From NCBI GenBank assembly GCA_023511615.1, contig JAIMBL010000016.1, positions 1-40,124 of the forward strand: DNA of 40,124 bases, given 5' to 3'. This document shows positions 4,444 to 40,124 of this stretch, one piece after another. Below the pieces are notes generated by a model. That model was given only the letters and a program-made list of their open reading frames with translations, was not told the DNA's origin and did not search any database. How positions within the stretch are numbered: the stretch's first letter is position 1; the number at the start of each line of letters is the position of its first letter. Both the position numbers and the translations under genes were made by a program. Source of the DNA: Leptolyngbyaceae cyanobacterium HOT.MB2.61 (GTDB lineage Bacteria > Cyanobacteriota > Cyanobacteriia > Leptolyngbyales > Leptolyngbyaceae).

Positions 4444-4566
4444 GGTTCTTCCGGCTTGCCGGTGAAAGAGTAGCTTAAGCTACTCTTTCATCTAAAATAA
4501 AATCCCTGGAATATTGATTTTGTTTCGGTTATAAGCGACGCTTATCATCAAACTCCCAGAAGATCC
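4444..4566 (+). mobile_element. MITE-like repeat, copy A (123 bp)
   Basis: The left end GGTTCTTCCGG and right end CCCAGAAGATCC are imperfect inverted repeats. An exact 8-bp direct repeat, AGCGAGAT, flanks the element (4436-4443 and 4567-4574). Inside are a perfect 28-bp palindrome (4463-4490, TGAAAGAGTAGCTT and its complement), the shared run AATCCCTGGAATATTGATTT, and a second hairpin ATAAGC-GAC-GCTTAT (4531-4545). The same arrangement recurs five more times in the window. The element is 77 bp upstream of the membrane-protein gene start. Confidence 0.88.
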
Positions 4567-4766: not shown

Positions 4767-4884
4767 GCTATAGCTCTACGCAGGTGCGTTAGGACATTGG
4801 AATTTAGAGAGGGAGTGGGGGCTTCGCCCACAGTTAGGGGTTTCACCCCTGCACCCCGTCCTAACTACGATGACTACCGCTGTA
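4767..4884 (-). repeat. GC-rich dispersed repeat R2, copy b
   Basis: The outer ends GCTATAGC...GTTAGGAC and GTCCTAAC...CCGCTGTA are imperfect inverted repeats. The centre holds GGGAGTGGGGGC, CGCCCAC and the AGGGGTTTCACCCCT hairpin. Read on the minus strand it matches copies at 28216 and 40071. It starts 13 bases after the rsgA stop codon in the direction of rsgA transcription, so it could act as a 3'-UTR stem-loop or terminator. Confidence 0.75.
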
Positions 4885-4897
4885 TTACTTATATTAC

Positions 4898-10756: not shown

Positions 10757-10896
10757 GGTTCTCCCAGCTTGCCGGTGAAAAAGTAGCTTATGCTACTCTT
10801 TCATCCAAACCAAAATCCCTGGAATTTTGATTTTGTTTCGGTCTTGATTTTGTTTTGGTGATAAGCGACGCTTATCACCAAACTCTCAGGAGAGCC
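10757..10896 (+). mobile_element. MITE-like repeat, copy B (140 bp)
   Basis: The ends GGTTCTCCCAG and TCAGGAGAGCC are inverted repeats. The flanks AGGAGCCA and AGAGGCCA match at 6 of 8 bases. Both internal hairpins are present (GAAAAAGTAGC...GCTACTCTTTC and TTGGTGATAAGC-GAC-GCTTATCACCAA). The 17-bp extra length relative to the 123-bp form is explained by a tandem doubling of TTGATTTTGTTT plus spacer. It lies in the region between the divergent grpE and pilB genes. Confidence 0.82.
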
Positions 10897-20331: not shown

Positions 20332-20850
20332 ATGCCTAACTCAATGAACCGTCTCTCGATATTTGTAGACGGCAACAATATGTTCTATGCCCAACAAAAA
20401 AATGGTTGGTTCTTCGATCCCAAACGTGTATTGGAATACTTTACAAGAGATCCTGACGTCGTTTTAGTGAATGCATTTTGGTATACAGGGCTAAAAGATC
20501 TTCAAGACCAGCGAGGCTTTCGAGATGCTCTTATTAGTTTGGGTTACACCGTTAGAATTAAAATCTTGAAGGAATATTACGACGATAATTCGGGACGATT
20601 TTCTCAGAAAGCAAATTTAGATATTGAAATTGTTGTTGATATGTTTAACACGGTTGATCAGTTCGACCGAGTCGTTCTGTTTAGTGGGGATGGAGATTTT
20701 GAACGAGCGATCGAGCTCCTGCGGGGCAAGAACACCCATATTACGGTAGTTTCAACCGAAGGCATGATTGCACGAGAACTCCGCAATGCAACCGATCACT
20801 ACATTGATCTGAACGACATCCGCAAGGAAATCGAGAAGATCGATTATTAA
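20332..20850 (+). CDS. NYN-domain protein, LabA/DUF88 family
   Basis: A 172-residue protein formed of one NYN domain, a PIN-like nuclease fold. Four conserved acidic positions are visible: Asp13 in SIFVDGNN, Asp97 in KANLDIEI, and Asp120 and Asp122 in LFSGDGDFERAI. The last motif is diagnostic of the LabA/Slr1870-like family. LabA in Synechococcus elongatus takes part in circadian output repression, and some family members are predicted RNases, so the precise role here is open. The start may be ATG at 20332 or ATG at 20344; neither has a strong ribosome binding site. A copy of the 123-bp repeat begins two bases after the stop codon. Confidence 0.85.
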   Translation: MPNSMNRLSIFVDGNNMFYAQQKNGWFFDPKRVLEYFTRDPDVVLVNAFWYTGLKDLQDQRGFRDALISLGYTVRIKILKEYYDDNSGRFSQKANLDIEIVVDMFNTVDQFDRVVLFSGDGDFERAIELLRGKNTHITVVSTEGMIARELRNATDHYIDLNDIRKEIEKIDY

Positions 20851-20852
20851 GC

Positions 20853-21063
20853 GCTTCTCCTGGCTTGCTGGCGAAAGAGTATCGCAAGCTACCTTTTCAC
20901 CTAAAGCAAAATCTGGTAGACCTAACAAGGTAATGATGAGCGGCGCCAGCCGCTACCATTAACGACTCAAAAATCATTACGATTTGGGCACTACCCAAAA
21001 TCTCTGGAATATTGATTTTGTTTTGATGATAAGCGCCGCTTATCACAAACTCTCAGGAGAGCC
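20853..21063 (+). mobile_element. MITE-like repeat, copy C, split by a second element
   Basis: The ends GCTTCTCCTGG and TCAGGAGAGCC match the family. The internal GGCGAAAGAGTATC...AGCTACCTTTTCACC and TGATAAGCGCCGCTTATCA hairpins are kept. Total length is 211 bp; removing the 81-bp insert and one 8-bp direct repeat leaves 122 bp, close to the 123-bp standard. No flanking direct repeat is seen (TATTAAGC versus GTGGAGGG), the only such case among six. Confidence 0.82.
20915..20995. mobile_element. 81-bp nested insertion inside repeat copy C
   Basis: The insert begins GGTAG and ends CTACC, and is flanked by exact 8-bp direct repeats CAAAATCT (20907-20914 and 20996-21003). Other copies of the host repeat have only one CAAAATC at this point. 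Inside is a GCGGC-GCCA-GCCGC hairpin (20940-20953) extended by TAATG/CATTA. This looks like a second, independent miniature element. Confidence 0.8.
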
Positions 21064-26269: not shown

Positions 26270-26392
26270 GATTCTCACGGCTCGCCAGTGAAAGAGTAGC
26301 GTAAACTACTTTCTCATCTCAAACAAAATCCTTGAAATATTGATTTTGCTTTGGTGATAAGTAAGGCCTATCACCAAACTCTCAGAAGAGTC
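26270..26392 (+). mobile_element. MITE-like repeat, copy D (123 bp)
   Basis: The ends GATTCTCACGG and TCAGAAGAGTC are degenerate inverted repeats. The flanks GAACTTCC (26262-26269) and AAACTTCC (26393-26400) match at 7 of 8 bases. Internal hairpins are recognisable (GTGAAAGAGTAGC...ACTACTTTCTCA; TTGGTGATAAG...CTATCACCAA). It sits 33 bp upstream of the bactofilin start, where the promoter would be expected. Confidence 0.83.
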
Positions 26393-28215: not shown

Positions 28216-28331
28216 TATAGCTATAGCCACCAGGCTTAGAACAGGGTGCAGGAGTAAACCCCCTGGCTGGGGGCAGAAGCCTCTACAACCCTTTTAAACC
28301 CGGTGTCCTAAGCAACTTGGCGATAGCCATA
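28216..28331 (+). repeat. GC-rich dispersed repeat R2, copy c
   Basis: The ends GCTATAGCCACCAGGCTTAG and CTAAGCAACTTGGCGATAGC are imperfect 20-bp inverted repeats. The centre has CCCCCTGGCTGGGGG. TA dinucleotides border both ends. It begins two bases after the stop of the 27384 gene, in the same orientation as copies b and d relative to their upstream genes. Confidence 0.75.
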
Positions 28332-28383: not shown

Positions 28384-28506
28384 GGCTCTCCTGAGAGTTT
28401 GGTGATAAGCCTTACTTATCACCAAAACAAAATCAATACGTTAGGGATTTTGTCCGAGATGAAAGAGTAGTTGACGCTACTCTTTCACCGGCAAGGCACG
28501 GGAACT
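28384..28506 (-). mobile_element. MITE-like repeat, copy E (123 bp, reversed)
   Basis: On this strand it starts GGCTCTCCTGA and ends in a degenerate GGGAACT. The flanks CGAGATTT (28376-28383) and CGAGAGTC (28507-28514) match at 6 of 8 bases. Both hairpins are clear: TTGGTGATAAG...CTTATCACCAA and GAAAGAGTAG-TTGACG-CTACTCTTTC. It is the only copy inserted in the opposite orientation. Confidence 0.82.
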
Positions 28507-38961: not shown

Positions 38962-39072
38962 GGTTCTCCTGGCTCGCCGGTGAAAAGGTAGCGTAAGCTG
39001 CTCTAAAATCCCTGGAATAGTGATTTTGTTTTGGTGATAAGCGTTGCTTATCACCAAACTTCCAGGAGAGCC
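38962..39072 (+). mobile_element. MITE-like repeat, copy F (111 bp)
   Basis: The ends GGTTCTCCTGG (38962-38972) and CCAGGAGAGCC (39062-39072) are the clearest terminal inverted repeats of the family, 10 of 11 matching. The flanks GCCCACAA (38954-38961) and GCCCAGAA (39073-39080) match at 7 of 8. The second hairpin is perfect (TTGGTGATAAGC-GTT-GCTTATCACCAA), while a 12-bp deletion removed the right arm of the first. Confidence 0.88.
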
Positions 39073-39382: not shown

Positions 39383-40075
39383 ATGAGGTCGATACAGCGC
39401 TATAGAGAGCAACAACCAGCGACTACAAAGTCTCCCACGGAAGCTCAGATCGAGGAAGAACGGATGCGCGATATTCTGCTGTTGCTTGACAGCCTCTTTA
39501 GACGGGAGGAAACAACGGCAAAGCTGATCCTGAACTGCCTCTATGACATTGGTTCAGTCAATTGGGTGAATAAAAAGTTTCGCACTCGCCCTGCAAATGG
39601 GTTGATGAAGTGGATTGCTCGCCTGAGTAAGCCTGCATTTAGGATATTTGCCCTGCGGTGGATGAAGCAGAACTGTCCTGAACTGATTGCCAAATGGATG
39701 CATTCAAAGGTGACGTTTGAGCAACCTCAAAATACTCCGGAGGCCGCTGTAGTTGAGGCTGAGACAGCCCGGAAAAGTATTCCAGAAGATTTGGAATCGT
39801 GTACACACGAGATTATGCGGCTGCGATCGCAGGTTAAAACGCTAACCGCTCTACTAATTGGAGTGACCGTTTCCCTTGGTAGCGCGGTTGCCTGGACGGT
39901 TTGGAAAGACCAGAGCGAGCTGGAATCAGTTCATCAGCCGCAGCGTATAATCAGCACGCCGCCATCTCGACCTGTACCTCCTCTTAATCCAAATCTTTTG
40001 AACGTCGTTGCTGACTCTATTGATGAAACCGTCAAGGCAAGTCGTCCTTCCCAACCTCCTCAACGAGGATTATAG
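39383..40075 (+). CDS. Single-TM protein of unknown function
   Basis: A protein of about 230 residues. ATG at 39383 is used; an upstream TTG at 39365 would add six residues. The N-terminal two thirds are soluble and helical (EERMRDILLLLDSLFRREET, KWIARLSKPAFRIFALRWM), a coiled-coil-like helix follows (CTHEIMRLRSQVKTL), then one membrane segment TALLIGVTVSLGSAVAWTVW and a Pro-rich outer tail (TPPSRPVPPLNP). The stop codon TAG (40073-40075) lies within the first bases of a copy of repeat R2, so the repeat supplies the end of the gene. No family is recognised. Confidence 0.65.
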   Translation: MRSIQRYREQQPATTKSPTEAQIEEERMRDILLLLDSLFRREETTAKLILNCLYDIGSVNWVNKKFRTRPANGLMKWIARLSKPAFRIFALRWMKQNCPELIAKWMHSKVTFEQPQNTPEAAVVEAETARKSIPEDLESCTHEIMRLRSQVKTLTALLIGVTVSLGSAVAWTVWKDQSELESVHQPQRIISTPPSRPVPPLNPNLLNVVADSIDETVKASRPSQPPQRGL

Positions 40076-40124
40076 CTATAGCCACCAGGCTTAGTACGGG
40101 GTGCAGGGGTGGAACCCCTGGCTG
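40071..40124 (+). repeat. GC-rich dispersed repeat R2, copy d (cut by window end)
   Basis: TATAGCTATAGCCACCAGGC followed by TTAG, GGTGCAGG and ACCCCTGGCTG is nearly identical to copy c at 28216. The first bases hold the stop codon of the gene at 39383. The rest of the repeat lies beyond the window. Confidence 0.8.

Follow-up and report, generated by a model that had tools for sequence, protein, structure and literature searches.

What is the sequence that interrupts one copy of a short repeat in the genome of Leptolyngbyaceae cyanobacterium HOT.MB2.61, and by which enzyme was it brought there? The window, that is, the whole 40,124-nucleotide stretch of DNA analysed here, carries copies of a 123-bp repeat family (the outer family) at 4444-4566, 10757-10896, 20853-21063, 26272-26390, 28384-28505 and 38962-39072, and further copies were taken from elsewhere (loci L219-L248). 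The third of these, copy C (20853-21063, plus strand), had been described in the initial annotation as broken by an 81-bp insert between two octamers, and the coordinates proved exact: CAAAATCT is read at 20907-20914 and again at 20996-21003, without assigned strand, and encloses the inner element at 20915-20995 (plus strand). By direct reading the insert starts with GGTAG, ends with CTACC and holds the hairpin sequence GCGGC-GCCA-GCCGC, all as first noted, and the excision proposed there also works, for removal of the insert and one repeat (89 bp) leaves an outer copy of 122 bp, against 123 bp in the consensus of its family. The inner segment is absent from the other outer-family members of the window. 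The duplication made by copy C itself is unclear, the 8 bp before 20853 being different from the 8 bp after 21063.

The insert is not a chance sequence, since it recurs as an 81-bp unit in at least 40 places of the whole genome (E = 2e-36 to 4e-29, identity 93-100%) and since two end-pattern censuses of the host genome gave 121 and 111 matches, against 0 in reversed-pattern controls. The same 81-bp search listed 145 first-look candidates, and a total of 120 distinct copies (at least 120, as this is a lower bound) were collected in the host, a few of them truncated or lying at contig ends; the insert is therefore far from being the only copy. The length is exactly 81 bp in 98 of the 120, and none of this is coding sequence. 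For the 113 copies having both flanks, at least 7 of the 8 flanking bases are identical in 69, against a mean of 0.76 and a maximum of 6 for shuffled flank pairings (1000 shuffles), and the 8-bp duplication is thus found well beyond copy C. About a third of the copies are without a clear duplication, as is expected of ageing copies. The duplicated octamers are 60% A+T, compared with 54% in the flanks, and follow no strict motif. Only 9 of the 87 copies with long flanks lie in ORFs of 150 aa or longer, compared with 53% of random nearby positions; by this estimate, which is based on ORFs and not on gene annotation, the insertions are mostly intergenic. In two copies, L160 and L130, an internal part (the hairpin and the hairpin-loop region, respectively) is inverted relative to both ends, as though it had been turned over across the inverted repeat.

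The outer family (123 bp, ends GGTTCTCC/GGAGAGCC) is also a miniature transposable element (MITE); of 29 members 24 show 8-bp duplications, and about 340 first-look candidates are present in the host genome. ISL3 was considered as its parent and rejected, no PF01610 match being present in the host assembly. Inside copy B of this family (10757-10896) there are 17 additional bp, by appearance a duplicate of the adjoining TTGATTTTGTTT sequence. The window holds yet another interspersed repeat, TATAGCTATAGCCACCAGGCTTAG...CCCCTGGCTG, at 28216-28269, 40071-40124 and, on the minus strand, 4831-4889; sequence similar to it is found next to some MITE copies (L014, L029). At least five inner copies stand within outer-family elements, namely the one in the window and those in L121, L123, L147 and L173. 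They occupy different outer copies, in both orientations and not always at the same target base, and are independent events; all five fall at outer positions 55-72 of 123, an A+T-rich stretch between two outer hairpins. Since 5 of 113 is close to what intergenic insertion alone predicts (an estimate from the roughly 340 outer-family candidates), no special targeting of the outer family is claimed. The proposal that a different miniature element was active after copy C had landed is supported by the 120 independent copies, by their 8-bp duplications and by the different termini of the outer family: the insert is a mobile unit in its own right, which entered an older mobile element.

The kinship of this unit was sought in its ends. 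The left terminal repeat GGTAGACCTAACAAGGTAATGATG (20915-20938, plus strand) consists of the GGTAG tip (positions 1-5), 10 variable bases and the inner block GTAATGAT (positions 16-23); the right terminal repeat (20972-20995, minus strand; reverse complement GGTAGTGCCCAAATCGTAATGATT) carries both blocks at equal spacing. Positions 1-5 pair with 77-81 and 16-23 with 59-66 in most of 92 inner copies, and the terminal inverted repeats are called imperfect because there is no match in their middle part. In a class-wide search, left-end matches of 24-25 bp were located at the ends of IS1-family elements in L076, L081 and L084. The inner left end is identical at 19 of 24 positions to both ends of L081 and, in L191 and L207, to the right end, the chance of at least 19/24 at one given site being about 1.5e-7. 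Against the matching IS1 group as a whole the left end scores 17-19/24 and the right end, more weakly, 16-17/24; the best chance matches within 3-kb loci reach 13-16/24, and a second IS1 group of the same genomes (851-886 bp) gives only 9-14/24, a part of the transposase families with 8-bp duplications being covered by the comparison. Aligned inner and IS1 ends have the GGTAG tip in common, and block 16-23 is GTAATGAT, GTAAGGAT or one change off. The matching group comprises complete elements from other cyanobacteria, 779-830 bp long and flanked by 8-bp duplications, found by PF03400 or matching PF03400 plus PF03811. L081 and L084 are 779-780 bp long with 8-bp duplications; L081 matches PF03811 (InsA) and PF03400 (IS1 DDE) and has a run of A between the two frames, at the insA/insB' junction. 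L191 (781 bp) and L207 (830 bp) resemble them in their ends and likewise made 8-bp duplications, and their genomes also hold relatives of the insert. The 8-bp duplication of the inner element falls in the IS1-type range of 8-9 bp. The likeness is confined to the ends, and as no internal IS sequence is in common, descent by internal deletion from an IS1 is at most possible.

We consider it very likely that the insert is a non-autonomous MITE of IS1 type, moved in trans by the transposase of the 779-830 bp group and now dormant. Judging from the ends and the duplication length, the inner family was probably at one time mobilised by an IS1-type transposase. An IS1-family DDE transposase (InsA-InsB' type) would have supplied the enzyme in trans, would have bound the inner block of the MITE ends and cut at the GG tips, and would have inserted the element between target-strand cuts 8 bp apart; the MITE itself would contribute no more than a hairpin and the two ends that the transposase recognises.

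The host genome contains 16 IS1 transposase matches. Those elements that are of the matching type by ends or sequence (L101, L102, L108, L111, L113) are all broken, decayed or truncated, and the inner family would for this reason be dormant today; an intact IS1 with near-identical or matching ends was not found in the assembly (383 contigs, in which repeats may be collapsed or missing). An intact matching transposase in the host is not required for past mobilisation of the MITE. Unpaired left ends, inspected for an autonomous parent, were all ordinary or truncated 81-bp copies, and plasmid and phage collections gave no match. The sole complete host IS1 found, at L098:1036-1921, is 886 bp long with a 9-bp duplication and has the different ends of another group; the duplication, GCGGTTCTC, is situated where a sequence resembling the outer family starts, and this IS1 thus seems to be a third element nested in such sequence. 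Divergence among 92 ungapped inner copies averages 5.6% from the consensus and 9.6% pairwise, the substitutions being chiefly transitions and nearest neighbours mostly differing at 1-4 positions. No sign of present-day activity was detected, as there is no identical pair among these 92 copies and no intact IS1 with matching ends in the assembly; the family may still have been active recently, because a short-read assembly may merge identical copies.

The internal hairpin (20932-20960, plus strand) was analysed by DNA-fold z-scores and by counting pairs in 20 sequences, which were taken from the host and from five further genomes. Its family consensus is AATGATG-A-GCGGC, a loop of 4 and GCCGC-CATCATT, and the main inner subfamilies retain this form or a T-A variant, pair 27-38 being C-G in 60 and T-A in 17 of 92 host copies. 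In the window copy three positions (33, 40 and 42) depart from the consensus; its pair A22-T42 is lost and G-T stands at 24-40, with z = -2.7 compared with -5.1 for the consensus. In the 20 sequences 5 of 12 stem pairs are changed on both sides and the structure beats almost all shuffles. This is suggestive, and no more than suggestive because the shuffle control leaves relatedness in, of pairing kept through some compensatory changes. Mini-elements of about 59-82 bp with similar ends and a stronger hairpin occur in other cyanobacteria of family f23, genus g41 (L077, L078, L096). L077, L078, L086, L089 and L096, of a distant cyanobacterial family, are short palindromes with GGTAG...CTACC-type ends and GTAATGATGGGCGGCGC-like hairpins, and L077 is a near-perfect 59-bp palindrome. 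It is conceivable, though we hold it only tentatively, that IS1-type mini-elements with a central hairpin by the inner block (GTAATGATG ... CATCATTAC), among them the 59-bp palindrome and forms of about 66-82 bp in another family (L077, L078, L096), make up one widespread cyanobacterial class in which selection maintains the hairpin for aiding transposition or protecting the element.

Other origins were weighed against the IS1-type MITE. Several IS families combine a terminal GG with an 8-bp duplication, and no intact IS1 parent was found in the host assembly; a true MITE of some other transposase family making 8-bp duplications (for example IS6-, IS1595- or ISL3-type), with a convergent or partial likeness to IS1, is the most serious competitor. 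We nevertheless rate it as unlikely in view of the match to complete IS1 elements in two blocks at fixed spacing, at a level (17-19/24 for the left end) above both the other IS1 group and chance, and no ISL3 transposase was detected in the host genome.

Far less credible is selection as a regulatory or RNA element (attenuator, sRNA or terminator) that spread by its usefulness, with transposition incidental. The compensatory changes in the stem and the intergenic bias agree with it, but purifying selection on genes predicts the same bias, the window hairpin is partly broken, and the congener G001 is devoid of copies; in addition, an Rfam search of the inner element gave no family above threshold and a scan showed no terminator- or promoter-like site. 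The weakest case of all is that of a REP palindrome with a GTAG tag, the GGTAG tip being the tag, moved by a RAYT tyrosine (Y1) transposase, of an enzyme class not known to produce 8-bp duplications. Such GTAG-tagged palindromic repeats do exist in cyanobacteria (PMC3733652), and the insert has both the tip and a hairpin. The REPs, however, are 20-40 bp long with the tag at one end (PMC3733652), whereas the insert is 81 bp long with GGTAG inverted at both ends, and the 8-bp duplications led us to reject this reading.

The inner element can also be placed in time. G001, the sole same-genus genome in the set (one contig), contains no copy of the inner element, and its region orthologous to the interval between the gene at 20332-20850 and leuA is short and without copy C and insert, the spacer being too diverged to show an exact empty octamer. 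About 35 near-identical IS1 copies of the other group are present in G001 (L187 and L204 measured 856-858 bp), which suggests a recent burst of that group. More diverged relatives of the insert (73-95%) are scattered over further genomes, seven in the first survey, one of them of another family (G057), and one more in the class survey; near the partial matches in L036, L037, L044, L045, L050 and L051 no obvious transposase ORF was seen. A genome-contig search with the host left out gave two named matches, both in Leptolyngbyaceae cyanobacterium RU_5_1. An ordered series is recorded, first the outer MITE, then the inner MITE and then the divergence of the copies, in a lineage from whose congener the inner element is missing. 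The event at copy C is a well-dated, well-preserved and otherwise ordinary nested transposition. A repeat of high copy number and without ORF, of a sort that annotation by genes would have no cause to list, is hereby linked to IS1 transposases in cyanobacteria.

The inner element adds a new family to a known kind, the cyanobacterial MITE. In the open-access papers covered no IS1-derived MITE of cyanobacteria was found, which is weak evidence of absence. Nezha (Zhou et al. 2008, cited in PMC10969869) is likewise a MITE of cyanobacteria. The 187-nt MITE of Microcystis aeruginosa PCC 7806, assigned by its authors to ISL3 (PMC11448079), resembles the insert in its cyanobacterial host, 8-nt duplications, mainly intergenic location and stem-loop, but differs in length, parent and ends, its GGCTCTTCG being nearer to the outer-family ends GGTTCTCC than to the inner ends. 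MITEAba12 of Acinetobacter (PMC6382973) is, like the insert, a very uniform short MITE (mostly 113 bp) with duplications in some copies and a parent named by common ends, but it has 9-bp duplications, ISAba12 as parent and a host of another group. The closest counterpart is the IS1 group of 779-830 bp (PF03400/PF03811; L081, L084, L191, L207), which has the same GGTAG tip, the equally spaced inner GTAATGAT or GTAAGGAT and the same 8-bp duplications; from it the insert, 81 bp long and without a transposase gene, differs in all but the ends.
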